Shown here: one piece after another, positions 865-7,700 of the stretch | Layout of the letters: every line of letters starts with the position of its first letter | How positions within the stretch are numbered: the stretch's first letter is position 1 | DNA from: Paludibacter sp. | GTDB lineage: Bacteria; Bacteroidota; Bacteroidia; Bacteroidales; Paludibacteraceae | Reading direction: 5' to 3' | NCBI GenBank assembly: GCA_028710895.1 | Contig: JAQTTH010000009.1 | Location: 124,001-188,000, forward strand | DNA length: 64,000 nt | The notes under the pieces: model-generated | Database searches by the model: none | The model's input: the letters and a program-made list of their open reading frames with translations, nothing else | Told to the model about the DNA's origin: nothing | Position numbers and translations under genes: made by a program

Positions 865-1650
865 TCACACAATCCTCAGCAGCGTTGCCACCTGTTTTGC
901 ATCTTCCCTGGTTGTAACACTGAGTCGTTTATAGATATCCAGACAGTAGTTTCTAAGTGTCTGGTCATTTTTAAACAGCTTGTTGGCCACATCCCGCACC
1001 TTTGTTTCTTTACAACGCAAGTGTAGAATTTCAAGTTGCTTTTCAGTCAACTCATTCGGGTTCTTAGCATCGAAACGTTTAAACACCTCATGCGTTTCTT
1101 CCGAAATAAGGCTAATCGTACGATAAGGTTGAAATTCGTCCACCTTACACATAGCTAATTGCTGAGTTTCTGAAATCAGTATCCAGGGTACATCCCACTC
1201 ATCGCTCAGCCACGGATAAATACGGTGCAGGTAAACACAATAACTACCATCTTTATGTTTCAACCTTATCGTATAAATCATTTGAAATAACTTACGCATT
1301 TCAGGAACAACCCCCATTAGGTATTCGTACCCCAGAATATCACCTTCGTAATAAAATTGCCTGTCATCCGGATGTATCAACGGATAAAGCTGATTCCAGT
1401 TATCACGCTCATGGGTCTTTACGCCTGGATAGGCCAAACAATGTTTATGAACGGATTTATAAAAATCATACCTGCTTTCATTCAGATCAATCAATGTAAT
1501 AGACATTTTGCTGTGAATCGCCCGCTGAGTCAGGCCAAAGAGTCCCGTAGCCAGGGTGGTTCTCATCTGAGGAGTTACATCAGCTTCGTGATACGATAAT
1601 AGATTTTTACGGCGAAAGCATAGTTCTAATAACGATTGAGATGAATTCAT
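865..1650 (-). CDS. LuxR-family transcriptional regulator with PAS-like sensor
   Basis: A 261-residue cytoplasmic protein. Residues about 90-165 (from IHPDDRQFYY to the run ending WILISETQ) look like a PAS fold of the type common in Bacteroidota regulators. Residues about 198-261 (NELTEKQLEILHLRCKETK, then VRDVANKLF) match a GerE/LuxR helix-turn-helix, with LRNYCLDIYKRLSV in place of the usual recognition-helix and dimer region. There is no receiver domain and no transmembrane segment, so it probably senses a cytoplasmic ligand or acts as an orphan regulator. It has its own terminator at 763-793. A TAATTTTG match at 1758-1765 on the minus strand could be its -7 element. The target genes cannot be read from the sequence. 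Confidence 0.75.
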   Translation of the reverse strand: MNSSQSLLELCFRRKNLLSYHEADVTPQMRTTLATGLFGLTQRAIHSKMSITLIDLNESRYDFYKSVHKHCLAYPGVKTHERDNWNQLYPLIHPDDRQFYYEGDILGYEYLMGVVPEMRKLFQMIYTIRLKHKDGSYCVYLHRIYPWLSDEWDVPWILISETQQLAMCKVDEFQPYRTISLISEETHEVFKRFDAKNPNELTEKQLEILHLRCKETKVRDVANKLFKNDQTLRNYCLDIYKRLSVTTREDAKQVATLLRIV

Positions 1651-2782: not shown

Positions 2783-3406
2783 ATGAACAAAGTAAGTTTA
2801 GATTTTTCGACAAATCAATACCCCGACCCACAGTTGAAGGTAAAAGCGTCGACAATTGCAAGTAGCTTGGATGGTAACCCCTATTACACAACTCTTGCCG
2901 AGAATGTAACAACAATCAGAGCCAAAATCACTACTTTCGACGATTACCTGTCGAAAATGGCGGATGGAAACAGACAAGTGACGGCACAGAAAAACGTTGC
3001 CCGCACCGAACTCACTGATGTGTTGTGCGACACGGGACGCCTTGTACAAAACATTAGCAAGGGTGACGAGGTGATGATTCTTAGTTCCGGTTACGACATG
3101 ACCCGGAAAGCAACTCCGGCAGTGGATGTGTTGGATCAACCAACCAACATCGTTGTAAAAGCAGGAAAAATTTCAGGAAGTCTGGAAGTGAGCTGGGATG
3201 CAGTAGATCATGCACGGAGTTACGAAGTGCGTTACTGTAAAGCACCTAAAACTGATGCTAGTGTGTACGAAAAACTCACAACTCTGAAACGAAAAACAAC
3301 ACTCGACAACCTTGTGCAGGGACAACAATACCTGATACAAGTTGCAGGGGTTGGTTCCGATCCTCGCCGTGCCTGGAGTCCGGAAATTTCAAGTTATGTA
3401 ATGTAA
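2783..3406 (+). CDS. Fibronectin type III domain protein
   Basis: A 207-residue protein without a signal peptide. The N-terminal half (residues 1-110) is mostly helical, with a long stretch around TLAENVTTIRAKITTFDDYL. The C-terminal part (about 118-205) is a fibronectin type III fold, recognised by SGSLEVSWDAVDHARSYEV, LVQGQQYLIQVAGVG and RRAWSPEISSYV. Proteins with this build recur in Bacteroidota genomes, often near phage-like or mobile regions; their function is not known to me. The ATG at 2783 is supported by an AAGGA six bases upstream. It stands alone and ends at a strong terminator (3429-3462). Confidence 0.75.
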   Translation: MNKVSLDFSTNQYPDPQLKVKASTIASSLDGNPYYTTLAENVTTIRAKITTFDDYLSKMADGNRQVTAQKNVARTELTDVLCDTGRLVQNISKGDEVMILSSGYDMTRKATPAVDVLDQPTNIVVKAGKISGSLEVSWDAVDHARSYEVRYCKAPKTDASVYEKLTTLKRKTTLDNLVQGQQYLIQVAGVGSDPRRAWSPEISSYVM

Positions 3407-3905
3407 AGGTTCAAACCAAAAACGGATAAAGCCGCCCGAATCGTTTGATTTGGGCGGCTTTTGTATTTATACAATAACCACATAAAGTATTTTAAATTAA
3501 TTCACTAAACGCTTGGATATATTAAGTGAAATTGCTATGTTTGCAAAATGTTTATTCTAAATCTGTTATGTTTCAGGTATAAGGGACGAAACAAACTCTG
3601 GTTTAAGAATGATCGAAGCAGGTACTGGGACTAAACAGACTGAAAAAAGACAAACTTAGAGGAAAAAAGGGATACACTATTGTATAAACATGAAATTTAC
3701 ACAATATCTATATTACAGCATTTTATAAATTTCAATTTATACTCATAAAGCGGAAGAATGCGCTATATAACAGCGCAGATATATGTTTTATAGGTCATGC
3801 TAGAAAAAGAACAGAAGCCAATTAACTAAGTCAAAACGAATAATTCATCAGAAAGTTAGAATTCATTTCCTTTTAATCCTATACTGAATAAAATATATCA
3901 ATTAT
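3407..3905. other. Gene-free stretch before the 1264-residue gene
   Basis: It begins with the FN3 gene's terminator. TATGTTTG at 3536-3543, preceded by CTTG at 3512-3515 with a 20-base spacer, is a fair match to a Bacteroidota promoter. If used, it would give the 3906 gene a leader of over 350 bases. Nothing else is recognised; a 28-codon frame at 3549 has no support. Confidence 0.45.
3429..3462 (+). terminator. Terminator of the FN3 gene
   Basis: AAGCCGCCCGAATC and GATTTGGGCGGCTT pair around GTTT with one mismatch, followed by TTGT. It is the strongest GC stem in this region and lies 22 bases after the stop codon. Confidence 0.8.
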
Positions 3906-6900
3906 ATGAAACTTGTAACACGAGATAATCTTGAAAGTTGGGCAAACACTGCTTTTTCTAAGTCAGTACTACCATACCTTATTTCGAGATTGGTTAGAGC
4001 AACAACACCAGCAAGCACTAAAGCAAATCTTCCTTCGGGAAGTGCAACCTATATTGGAGGTTGGGACGGCATTGTGAATTGTGAAATTGATACGGCTTAT
4101 GTGCCTCAAGGAACTTCTTTGTGGGAATTTGGAACAGACCTAAAACCTAAAGTAAAAGCAGAAAAAGAATATATTAAGAGAAAAGATAATCCATTAGGGT
4201 TTATTCCTAAAGATTCCATATTCATTTTTGTCACTCCGAGACTATGGACGAAAAAAGTTGATTGGATTGCAGAAAAGAAGGCAGAAAATCATTGGAAAGA
4301 TGTAATAGTTTATGATTCAATTGACTTAGAGCAATGGCTTGATATATCCTTACCTGTTTCAAAGTGGTTCGCAGAAGAACCTGGTGTTAATGGAATTCCA
4401 TTTGAAGGTGTTTTAACTGCAGATGAGTTTTGGAATGAGTGGTCAATTGGTCCAATAAAATTGGAACCAGAAGTAGTTACTGCTGGAAGGGAATTTGAAC
4501 AACAATTATTGTTTGATATTCTTCAAGGTGAAGCTTGTATTAAAGCAATTAAAGCATCAACTAAAGATGAAGCAACAGCATTTATAATCGCATCTGCTAA
4601 AATGTTTTCTAAAAATGAATCAGAAATATTTTTCTCAAAATCATTAATCTCAGATAATAGTAATTGTTTCCGAACAATAAGGTACAACACAAAATATCCA
4701 CTGAATTTAATTCCTAGATTTAATGATGCAAGTCAATTTTATTCTGCAACTGGAGAGAAACATCACGTGCTAGTTCCTCTTGGGGCTGATGATGATTTTA
4801 ATCAAGATACTATCAATTTACCCACTATAGATAGAGATAATCAAATTAAGTCATTAGTCAAAAGCGGGTTAGCACTAGAAGATGCTGAAAAATTCTCAAG
4901 AGAGTCTGGTCGTAATATTACTGTACTTAGAAAGCTTCTAAAATTTCCCTATTTTAAAGCAAAATGGATTGAGAAAGAAAATATTCGTGAAATTATCCCT
5001 GCACTTCTTTTAGGAAGATGGAACGAAACTTATGTAGGTGACATTGAATTGATTGAAAAACTTTCTGAACAGAAGTATTCTGATTATTTAGTTACACTAA
5101 ACAAATGGAAGAATTTTGAAGAATCACCAATCATTCAAATTGGTGAAACTTGGCGATTAACTTCGCCATTAGATTTATGGACAAATCTTTCATTTCAACT
5201 TACACCAAAAGATTTTCAAATCATTGAAGAGTGTTTTTCTTTAGCATTCAAAAACGGAAATCCAATCATTGAACCTGAAGATAAAAACAGTTTCACGGCT
5301 TATTTCAACAAAAGAAATAAATACTCTAATTGGTCAAGAGAAGGGCTAACGCAATCTTTAATTTTAGTCGGCCGATTGAATGGAGTGAAGATTCCAAACC
5401 TAAATAATCCGCAAAATTGGGTTGACAACATTATTTTTGATTTGCTCAACAATGCAAATGGAGAAATGTGGGTTTCCATTGACCACGAATTACCACTTAT
5501 TTCAGAAGCATCCCCTGAAAGTTTTCTTAAAGCCATAAAAAGTTCTTTGGAAAAAGAACAACCTGAAATAATGGATATGTTCAAAGAAGAAGATGGAATT
5601 TTGCATAAAACAAGTCATCACACTGGTTTGTTGTGGGCTCTTGAAAATTTAGCTTGGTTGCCCGAGTATTTAAGGGATGTTAGTTTGATTCTGCTAAAAC
5701 TCTCACGACTTGACCCAGGCGGTAATTTGGAGAATAGACCATTAAATAGTATTACAGAAATTTTCAAACCTTGGCATTACCAAACTCTTGCATCCTATGA
5801 TGAAAGAATGGAAATTCTGAAATACGTCTCAAAGAAAGAAAAAGAATCAGGTTGGAGTCTACTAATTAGAATGTTACCCGAGCATCATGGTATTGCCCAC
5901 CCAACACATAAAATGCGTTGGAGAATGTTTGACAAGAACACAAATCAATCATATACTTATCAGGAAATATGGAACACGCATTCAGCGATCATTGAAATGC
6001 TAATAAATCTTTTTGATAACGATGAAGAAAAGTTTTCTCTACTCATAAAAGAAACTTTCAACAAAGAACTAAGTCCAAAAGATAGAAAAAAGGTTTTAGA
6101 TTGGGCAGATACTGTTTGCACAAATATCGAACAAAAGAAATTTACAACTTGGGAAGAAATTAGAAAAATTTTAAATCAGCATAGGTCGCATCCTAATACT
6201 GAATGGGCTTTGCCTGAATCTGAATTAGCGAGGTTAGAGTCTTTGTATATTAAACTTCAACCAATAGATGTAATTAATAAATACATTTGGCTTTTTAATG
6301 ACCAGTTTCCTGATTTTCCCGAAGGCTTTAAATATGATGATAAAGAATTTGAAAAACGACACGAGCAACATCAAAGGCAAATTGATGAAGCTAGAGATAA
6401 TGCGGTAACTATTTTTCTCAAAGAATTAGGTTTAAATCATACTTTAGAGCTTAGAAAGATAGTCAAGGAATTTTGGCTTTTGGGTGGTACTTTAGCAAAC
6501 GTAATTACAAATCAAGAAGAAATTTATACAGTTTGTGAATGCTTAAATGATGAAAAAAATCTCATTGGTTTTGTACACAGCTTTATTTATCGAAAGTCAA
6601 TTGTTGAAAATTTTGAATGGATACAATCTTTGTTCAAAAAATTACAAGAAAAAAAGGTTAGCAACAAAGCACTTTCTAATGTTTTAATTCCTTTAATTCA
6701 AAATCAACAATTATGGGATTATATAGCTTCGTTAGATGAAGAAATCCAAAACGATTATTGGCTAAATATGATTCCACGTTTTTATCATATCACTGAAGAT
6801 GAAAAAACTTTCGGAATAGAAATGCTTTTAAAATATAAAAGATTCTTTTCTGCAATTGATATTGCATCTCATTTCGCAGATTCAATTCCAAGTAATCTTC

Positions 6901-7700
6901 TTTCTGAAATGCTTCGAAAGGCTGGAACAGTAGATGCAAGCGAAACTCCACGTTTTAGAGGTTATGAGATTGAACAGGTTTTTAAAGAACTTGACAAGCG
7001 GACAGATGTTGAAAAATCAACTCTTATTCATTTGGAATGGTTGTATCTTCCAATTTTAGATTCCCATGGAGCAAAAAGAAAACCAAAAAATTTGGAAGAA
7101 GAATTAGCCAACAACCCTGACTTTTTTATTGAAGTTTTAAAATGCATTTACATTCCTAAGGACAAAACATTGTTGGAAAAAGAAAGAGAAGGTTTTTCTA
7201 ATGAAGTAATTCAAAACAGAGCAAAACAAGCATTTCATTTGCTGCATTCTTGGAAGAAAATTCCGGGAATGAAAGAAGATAATTCTATTAATGAAGATGA
7301 ATTAAAAAAATGGGTTATAAAAGCAAGAACTTTGGCAGAAACTATAAGTAGATTAGACGTTGCAGATGCAGAAATTGGAAAAGTTTTAGCACAATATCCC
7401 GAAAACAGTCCTTTTTGGCCACAGGAAAAAATATTTCAATTAATAGAAGAAATAAATACCAAGAGTTTAAAGCAAAATTATTCTTCTGCTTTATTCAACA
7501 AAAGAAGTTTTTCATCAAGAGCTGCATTTGAGGGAGGGAACATAGAAAGAGAAAAAGCGGCTTATTTTGAAAAGTTAGAGAATGACTTTAAAAATAAATT
7601 TCCTAATGTTTCAGAAATTTTCGGACATATGAAACAAGGATATTTAGCCGATGCAAAACGAATGGACGAAAGTGCAGAAAGGGATAAACTGGAATACTGA
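3906..7700 (+). CDS. Large solitary protein with nuclease-like N-terminus, candidate anti-phage protein
   Basis: A 1264-residue soluble protein with no signal peptide or membrane segment. Residues 1-160 resemble restriction-endonuclease-like N-terminal domains. GGWDG (D54), LWEFGTD (E74) and KAEKEYIKR (K84-K91) give a D-E-K series, followed by IFIFVTPR (105-112) and VIVYDSIDLEQWL. Residues about 190-350 look like a degraded P-loop ATPase: the strand before KASTKDEATAFIIASAK sits where a Walker A would be, but the glycines are gone. The remaining ~900 residues are mostly helical, probably HEAT-like repeats. Large nuclease-plus-STAND proteins of this build are known in prokaryotic immunity, but I cannot match this one to a named system. 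The gene stands alone, is markedly AT-rich compared with its neighbours, and lies in an accessory region. Function is inferred. Confidence 0.6.
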   Translation: MKLVTRDNLESWANTAFSKSVLPYLISRLVRATTPASTKANLPSGSATYIGGWDGIVNCEIDTAYVPQGTSLWEFGTDLKPKVKAEKEYIKRKDNPLGFIPKDSIFIFVTPRLWTKKVDWIAEKKAENHWKDVIVYDSIDLEQWLDISLPVSKWFAEEPGVNGIPFEGVLTADEFWNEWSIGPIKLEPEVVTAGREFEQQLLFDILQGEACIKAIKASTKDEATAFIIASAKMFSKNESEIFFSKSLISDNSNCFRTIRYNTKYPLNLIPRFNDASQFYSATGEKHHVLVPLGADDDFNQDTINLPTIDRDNQIKSLVKSGLALEDAEKFSRESGRNITVLRKLLKFPYFKAKWIEKENIREIIPALLLGRWNETYVGDIELIEKLSEQKYSDYLVTLNKWKNFEESPIIQIGETWRLTSPLDLWTNLSFQLTPKDFQIIEECFSLAFKNGNPIIEPEDKNSFTAYFNKRNKYSNWSREGLTQSLILVGRLNGVKIPNLNNPQNWVDNIIFDLLNNANGEMWVSIDHELPLISEASPESFLKAIKSSLEKEQPEIMDMFKEEDGILHKTSHHTGLLWALENLAWLPEYLRDVSLILLKLSRLDPGGNLENRPLNSITEIFKPWHYQTLASYDERMEILKYVSKKEKESGWSLLIRMLPEHHGIAHPTHKMRWRMFDKNTNQSYTYQEIWNTHSAIIEMLINLFDNDEEKFSLLIKETFNKELSPKDRKKVLDWADTVCTNIEQKKFTTWEEIRKILNQHRSHPNTEWALPESELARLESLYIKLQPIDVINKYIWLFNDQFPDFPEGFKYDDKEFEKRHEQHQRQIDEARDNAVTIFLKELGLNHTLELRKIVKEFWLLGGTLANVITNQEEIYTVCECLNDEKNLIGFVHSFIYRKSIVENFEWIQSLFKKLQEKKVSNKALSNVLIPLIQNQQLWDYIASLDEEIQNDYWLNMIPRFYHITEDEKTFGIEMLLKYKRFFSAIDIASHFADSIPSNLLSEMLRKAGTVDASETPRFRGYEIEQVFKELDKRTDVEKSTLIHLEWLYLPILDSHGAKRKPKNLEEELANNPDFFIEVLKCIYIPKDKTLLEKEREGFSNEVIQNRAKQAFHLLHSWKKIPGMKEDNSINEDELKKWVIKARTLAETISRLDVADAEIGKVLAQYPENSPFWPQEKIFQLIEEINTKSLKQNYSSALFNKRSFSSRAAFEGGNIEREKAAYFEKLENDFKNKFPNVSEIFGHMKQGYLADAKRMDESAERDKLEY

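Follow-up and report, generated by a model that had tools for sequence, protein, structure and literature searches.

A P-loop-less branch of STAND-like proteins with a predicted nuclease module, represented by a solitary gene of Paludibacter sp.

STAND receptors, from bacterial Avs proteins to the NLR proteins of animals and plants, are generally understood as nucleoside triphosphate (NTP) switches, and the locus described here raises the question of whether such switching is dispensable. The locus is a gene for a protein of 1264 residues in a 64,000-nt stretch of Paludibacter sp. contig JAQTTH010000009.1 (the window, to which all coordinates refer); a preliminary description of this DNA had given the boundaries and length of its reading frame, and both were exact; the frame is on the plus strand and starts with ATG (Table 1). 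Our analysis revealed that the protein belongs to a P-loop-less branch of PD-lambda-4/Avs-like receptors, which is real, conserved, often mobile and module-swapping. A lineage that keeps the nuclease, the fold and the solenoid but carries an acid at the lysine that grips ATP provides a test of this question, and it adds a family that escapes the models of Pfam, NCBIfam and PADLOC applied here.

We propose that the protein is a self-contained, nuclease-armed STAND-type receptor directed against phages or plasmids, a reading that we consider probable in outline and less secure in its details. The alpha-solenoid (residues 347-1264) would detect a cue of the invader, the STAND-derived module without a P-loop (residues 191-346) would act as hinge and oligomerisation scaffold, and the N-terminal PD-(D/E)XK nuclease (residues 1-190) would be the effector, cutting DNA on release or assembly of the protein. 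The loss of the ATP-binding loop in this protein and in the close relatives checked suggests a different triggering; with the P-loop lost and an acidic residue in the place of its lysine, the switch would probably be operated by ligand binding and assembly and not by ATP/ADP exchange. That the protein is an antiviral or anti-plasmid effector of some kind appears likely, and the chances that it works without NTP binding seem to us about even. Somewhat short of even, and therefore offered tentatively, is a wider proposal, in which STAND-derived receptors without nucleotide switching would be widespread and module-swapping, would have A-[S/T]-x-x-[E/D]-A-x-A-F, a conserved acidic motif, in place of the P-loop, would be activated solely by assembly driven by a ligand, and in some hosts would act together with a living paralogue encoded alongside, like sensor/helper NLR pairs. 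The other readings weighed below overlap in part, and the likelihoods assigned to them need not sum to one.

The nuclease-like and STAND-like modules

An AlphaFold2 model of residues 1-560 was built from 21 sequences (mean predicted local distance difference test score, pLDDT, 88.2), and pLDDT was mostly above 90 over residues 1-136. In this part, helices 6-13 and 18-33 are followed by strands 39-41, 55-59 and 69-75, helix 81-94, strand 104-109, helix 117-126 and strand 132-136. The PD-(D/E)XK core has this helix/strand order (abbbab), and residues 1-136 are predicted to carry a fold order of this type, in agreement with the restriction-like nuclease domain described before, in which IFIFVTPR corresponds to strand 104-109. 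In the model, D54 is positioned just before strand 55-59 and E74 within strand 69-75, so that the two acids lie on adjacent strands.

Sequence conservation points to the same residues. D54, G55, E74 and K84 were invariant in all 46 aligned rows, the window protein included; these rows represent 33 clusters at 70% identity, after removal of 20 pieces shorter than 600 residues, 24 sequences that lack this N-terminus and 12 duplicates. A WDG-like motif had at first served to choose the rows, and because a choice repeated without the motif returned the identical 46 rows, the invariance of D54, E74 and K84 is not a selection artefact. Position 76 was G in 44 rows and S in two, and K84, which is located ten residues past E74 and opens the next helix, may be a displaced catalytic lysine. 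When the model was compared with a library of viral structures using Foldseek, nothing passed 1e-3, and a weak match at rank 8 was named "Restriction endonuclease" (E 0.029, prob 0.99, 213 columns).

Two further proteins were observed in connection with this module. A 605-residue neighbour of a family gene (L012:14785-16599) likewise begins with a WDG-like stretch (PSWDGEV, close to the N-terminus), matches no Pfam family at E<=1e-3, and is possibly a related nuclease module. A separate 402-residue protein (L116:6295-7503, the same as L026:254-1462) matches the N-terminal region of the family; in genome G131 its gene immediately precedes a family gene of full length.

For the module that follows, the best matches of the 1-560 model in the PDB were Avs4 bound to portal (Foldseek E 2.5e-6) and the AVAST5 filament (6e-6), both with prob 1.00, with weaker matches to Apaf-1, NRC4 and CED-4 (E 0.007-0.1) and to RFC clamp loaders (>1e-3); these matches argue for a STAND-type fold in the model. 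In addition, an hhalign comparison of the family with an alignment (A3) of the PD-lambda-4_A-like proteins found in genomes of the phylum gave prob 99.4 and E 1.8e-21 over 1116 columns, and a wider family alignment agreed (1110 columns). This comparison paired GGWDG with GGxD, EFG (74-76) with QxK, KASTKDEATAF with GLSGLGKTRLV, and PLNLIPRFN with ILIVDNC, the Walker B motif of the PD-lambda-4_A-like proteins. The STAND shape proposed in the preliminary description, and its placing of KASTKDEATAF at the Walker A position, were borne out by these structural and full-length profile matches. Among PDB sequences, a profile of residues 1-560 had no usable match, ribosomal uS13 ranking first at E 0.02, and the PD-lambda-4-like alignment had none at E<=1.

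The loss of the P-loop glycines, likewise described before, was common to all rows compared. GxxxxGK[ST] was found at the NTPase site in none of the 46 rows, the sole occurrence being at residue 76 of L067, inside the nuclease domain, and position 222, opposite the P-loop lysine, was E in 42 rows and D in four. The motif was also absent from all ten class C proteins (see below). By the same count, two of nine "other" rows were P-loop-type and both carried the motif, as did 13 of the 15 P-loop-type sequences, among which L064 and L143:6001-7542 are partial proteins; the remaining two (L065, L143:8587-10890) are 3' pieces that lack the site. The replacement motif is itself conserved, with A217 in 40, E or D at 222 in 46, and F226 in 45 of the rows. 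Substitution rates showed that selection on the modules is purifying: residues 191-346 gave a nonsynonymous rate (dN) of 0.049 and a synonymous rate (dS) of 0.807 against the nearest homologue, L008, the three modules gave dN 0.05-0.29 and dS 0.69-2.9 against L008, L020 and L002, and dN/dS was about 0.06-0.19 in 11 of 12 module comparisons, one dS against L010 being not estimable and some dS values saturated. A decaying, non-functional STAND gene would also have lost its ATP-binding motifs, and a few homologues are indeed broken or split (G088, G116, L029, L045). However, all 46 rows, which come from several phyla and are mostly full-length, have undergone the loss, with a conserved substitute motif and dN far below dS, and because of this conservation the decay reading is already contradicted and we regard it as extremely improbable.

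Relatives among known systems

PD-lambda-4 is an anti-phage system that reportedly emerged from the selection in E. coli by Vassallo et al. (2022), with protein A covered by the PADLOC models PDLC03990 and PDLC03991. PD-lambda-4_A-like proteins (L059-L064), which were found in 6 of 198 genomes of the phylum, resemble the window family in length, in sporadic occurrence and, by reading, in domain order (GGxD...QxK, P-loop module, helical part), and the profile alignment indicates that the two groups share ancestry over their whole length. They differ in that the P-loop of the PD-lambda-4_A-like proteins is intact, whereas Walker A is lost in the window family with an acid at the lysine position, and in that their QxK corresponds to E-x-G, with K84 further on. 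The window protein alone, used as a query, had no match at E<=10 in Pfam, PADLOC, NCBIfam or the PDB sequences; 12 of 35 homologues searched with PADLOC at E<=1 matched PD-Lambda-4_A (PDLC03991) weakly (best 2e-5). The preliminary description had matched the protein to no named system; PD-lambda-4 A, whose models it misses, is its nearest named relative, in a comparison that rests on model matches and not on the E. coli prototype. The available part of the main text of PMC9519451 (Vassallo et al., 2022) contains no occurrence of PD-lambda-4.

Avs4 and Avs5 (AVAST), the best structural matches, have the same order of effector, STAND module and C-terminal repeats. According to the part of PMC12931631 available, changing the Walker A glycine or lysine of an Avs5 abolishes immunity, so that Avs5 requires the very motif that the window family lacks at this site. 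At least three inactive versions of STAND, including iSTAND and iSTAND2 of the MoxR-vWA ternary systems, have been described in conflict systems with eroded NTP-binding motifs and proposed as nucleic-acid receptors (PMC8195603, seen in part). The inactive STANDs of that account occur in ternary systems or with GT4/HEPN effectors, whereas the window family is a nuclease fusion, mostly solitary and related to PD-lambda-4. Inactive STANDs as such are therefore already published, and the window family is a variant set apart from iSTAND by description.

A PHROG family of phage proteins, phrog_18693, matches the window protein over its whole length (E 5e-170), a likeness that provides a viral link and, as the function of phrog_18693 is not assigned, no mechanism. 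No paper describing the family was found in open-licence literature among the matches listed, and the accessible part of PMC10853773 has nothing on it.

Solenoid, module exchange and distribution

The approximately 900 mostly helical residues of the preliminary description were recovered in a model of residues 340-1264 (25 sequences, pLDDT 86.9), which is helical except for a few short strands. Its best PDB matches were the HEAT-type solenoids SF3B1, CAND1 and karyopherins/importins (E from 2.6e-5, with low template modelling (TM) scores), and by analogy with Avs proteins the solenoid may be the sensor of the invader.

Comparison of homologues with the nuclease N-terminus (class A) and other classes indicated that N-termini are exchanged near residue 348. 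Class C (L028, L029, L046, L050-L055, L058) has a different N-terminus, for which hhalign detected no homology to class A before about residue 348, the class C profile being thin; its single match, not significant and 24 columns long, lay at the junction. Matches before residue 223 in another comparison are explained by class C rows in the profile used. A profile of the class C N-terminus had no usable match among PDB sequences (best 0.33, PtuA). The idea of a Cap4-like nuclease in class C (FE..VQ ... DDL ... QVKHS) was supported by no search. Class D (L047 and L057; 924-931 residues) starts at residues 362-364, and its N-termini (L047:7884-10658, L057:9884-12679) show a motif of the type H[TS]G[TA]GHN[VI]A where the nuclease would be.

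A second kind of exchange concerns a shorter segment. In 60-residue blocks of residues 61-345, the window protein was 83-97% identical to L008 and 58-77% identical to six other homologues, whereas blocks 1-60 (87-93%) and 361-420 (90-97%) were about equally close to all seven, so that residues 61-345 behave as an exchanged block among close homologues. As this allelic segment spans the nuclease core and the dead module and not the solenoid, it would fit a diversifying recognition part, and it could be that the dead STAND module is the receptor for invader nucleic acid, with the solenoid as scaffold or partner-binding arm. That proposal, which partly overlaps our own and agrees with the role suggested for inactive STANDs (in the part of PMC8195603 available), seems rather unlikely to us: classes C and D, which have the solenoid in common, lack the dead module or carry something else in its place.

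Class B bears an additional N-terminal helix-turn-helix (HTH) domain (Pfam HTH_3 in L015 and L018, HTH_17 in L016), and ParAB or ParB is encoded nearby on two plasmids (L016, L017). Both observations would suit a protein that regulates or maintains mobile elements, with the HTH fused to many homologues as its business end, rather than an antiviral effector. We consider this improbable, since presence or absence of the HTH makes no difference to the invariance of the nuclease residues, no HTH was matched in the window protein, and an HTH-like stretch, by reading, also precedes the P-loop-bearing relative L062. A nuclease-armed receptor remains the reading that we prefer.

The family is sporadic, occurs on plasmids and viral contigs and is often mobile. 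Twelve relative loci were found in genome contigs (63-84% identity in the best segment), with titles naming Bacteroidota genera and metagenome-assembled genomes (MAGs), plus one Ignavibacteria-labelled and one Gracilibacteria-labelled MAG. Relatives were also present in 22 plasmid records, with coverage of at least 80% in 18, and in one unverified phage scaffold. Successive scans of viral contigs yielded 0, 10, 10, 15 and 9 loci; nine contigs of the third scan were already in the second and one was new, and the 15-locus scan (alignment A5) was not used, its matches being mostly to the HTH end only. Among genomes of the phylum, 14 of 395 carried the family, a count that includes the window's own genome and the broken copies of G088, G116 and G146, and one of 14 control genomes gave a match (Corynebacterium glutamicum). 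The family was found in none of 35 other genomes of the genus, some of them incomplete, and in none of 24 genomes of the same order, so that among 60 relatives only the window's own genome has it, as expected of the accessory region postulated before.

Paralogue pairs, genomic context and setting of the gene

Two Rhizobium plasmids, R. leguminosarum pPR4 (L037) and that of R. gallicum IE4872 (L141), carry a complete dead gene with a P-loop-type paralogue (GASGLGKS, 1280-1281 residues) behind it in the same orientation, with gaps of 63 and 53 bp, respectively, by longest open reading frames (ORFs). In R. gallicum R602sp (L146), the live gene follows a 695-residue remnant in which nothing but the C-terminal portion of the dead protein is left. 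The order is kept between L037 and L141, at 66.5% identity for the dead and 54.2% for the live partners, and a natural dead/live pair is available for study. All three Rhizobium plasmids were typed to replicon cluster 471, and for this reason the three cases are not independent evidence from different plasmid lineages. The other live-type loci fetched (L142-L145) had no dead copy in their flanks, and no other fetched locus held both types. The dead-then-live order raises the possibility that the family and a P-loop-bearing paralogue form a hetero-oligomer of which the family provides the inactive half, solitary copies borrowing a paralogue encoded elsewhere; a published pair of one inactive and one active STAND has been proposed to assemble into a toroidal hetero-multimer (PMC8195603, in the part available). 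We think this doubtful, and more so than a nucleic-acid-binding dead module, since only two cases are complete, all come from one replicon cluster, the gaps by annotated starts vary (63 bp in L037, 398 bp in L141, 113 bp in L146), and PDLC03991 matched nothing in the genome of the window at E<=10.

The association with defence genes is suggestive. We examined 21 plasmid loci (20 of the 22 records, plus R602sp by way of another match; Cupriavidus H12, a near duplicate, was omitted), and 8 of 18 annotated ones (L015, L038, L041, L042, L045, L046, L140, L141) have Abi, SIR2, Shedu-domain or restriction genes, including type I restriction-modification (R-M), in their flanks, a count that has no matched plasmid control. 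AbiEi/AbiEii are encoded divergently next to the family gene in L038, L140 and L141. In addition, 19 chromosomal loci (nine of the 12 contig relatives and ten from whole genomes) were surveyed by scanning 134 of 189 ORFs, those of 100-1000 residues within 4.5 kb, with 17 chosen neighbours scanned singly to place the matches. Seven of these loci have defence-type neighbours: a BsoBI R-M system directly upstream of the family gene (L005), CD-NTase and SIR2-like proteins (L114, SIR2_2 just below the cut-off), SEFIR (L113), AlbA/Schlafen (L117), C5 methylases that are possibly orphan (L116, L120) and, weakly, a borderline Mrr_cat (L115). A second CD-NTase match among the pooled neighbours was not placed to a locus. 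PADLOC families numbered 175, many from redundant models, in the 134 neighbours and 51 in 116 control proteins, a comparison too crude for significance. MoxR/vWA partner genes were not among the best 25 of the 149 Pfam families matched. No Pfam family occurred in more than two of the 134 neighbours at E<=1e-5, which, together with a hairpin after the upstream gene (Table 1), agrees with the solitary gene of the preliminary description.

Several points weigh against the receptor that we propose. The canonical place of the E-x-K lysine is taken by G76; GGWDG, LWEFGTD and KAEKEYIKR of the D54-E74-K arrangement described before are where they had been placed, with K84 outside that canonical place. 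TM-scores against Avs4 and AVAST5 are low (0.29), and a non-Walker mode of nucleotide binding may exist. In the part of PMC10952713 available, the table assigns PD-lambda-4 a P-loop NTPase but no PD(D/E)XK domain, so that the nuclease reading of PD-lambda-4 is our own, drawn from alignment A3. The defence-gene association named earlier as support was found at part of the homologous loci but not at the window copy, which lies in no defence island: its neighbours encode carbohydrate-active enzymes, an esterase-like protein and the LuxR/FN3 pair. By eye, the ORF listings of L002, L004, L007, L008 and L010 contain no obvious defence neighbour either, the controls (17 stretches, all on family-bearing contigs) themselves include pAgo, MkoA/C, ShosA and type IV restriction matches, and enrichment is not established statistically. 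Finally, we infer, rather than observe, the nuclease activity, the sensing by the solenoid, the independence of NTP and the antiviral role.

Table 1. Coordinates of the gene, its modules and the adjoining hairpin in the window
Feature	Position	Strand	Evidence
Complete coding sequence, ATG start, 1264 residues	3906..7700	+	ORF analysis; full-length homologues; whole-length phrog_18693 match
Predicted PD-(D/E)XK-type nuclease module, residues 1-190	3906..4475	+	Predicted helix/strand order; profile alignment to PD-lambda-4_A-like proteins
D54 codon (GGWDG)	4065..4067	+	D in 46/46 rows
E74 codon (LWEFG)	4125..4127	+	E in 46/46 rows; aligned to Q76 of QxK
K84 codon (KAEKEYIKR), candidate displaced catalytic lysine	4155..4157	+	K in 46/46 rows
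STAND/P-loop-like alpha-beta module without Walker A, residues 191-346	4476..4943	+	Profile alignment, model, Foldseek, conservation
KASTKDEATAF, residues 216-226, former Walker A site	4551..4583	+	hhalign; E222 in place of P-loop lysine
Helical linker and HEAT/ARM-like alpha-solenoid (model), residues 347-1264, common to N-terminal variants	4944..7697	+	Model, Foldseek
Allelic segment, residues 61-345	4086..4940	+	60-residue block identities among close homologues
Terminator-like hairpin, 15 pairs, after upstream gene	3428..3461	+	Hairpin search

The gene is AT-rich, as described before, with a GC content of 0.30-0.345 against mostly 0.38-0.47 in the rest of the window. A Bacteroidota-type promoter pattern was no more frequent than by chance and had no site upstream of the gene, and an empty-site comparison with genome G020, in which only the FN3-like gene aligned, was uninformative. 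The pair on the upstream side is divergent and, by reading, consists of a LuxR-type regulator (865-1650, minus strand) and a 207-residue FN3-like protein (2783-3406, plus strand). Contigs C8, C5, C14, C27 and C31 of the same genome each hold matches to both proteins, separated by about 1 kb, the FN3-like copy on C5 containing a stop, and similar pairs are present in genomes G015, G016, G032, G454 and G456. Between the LuxR-type and FN3-like genes, positions 2030-2330 of the window are AT-rich and, by eye, hold many near-repeats of a unit like 'gattttcaatttaatgtatat'.

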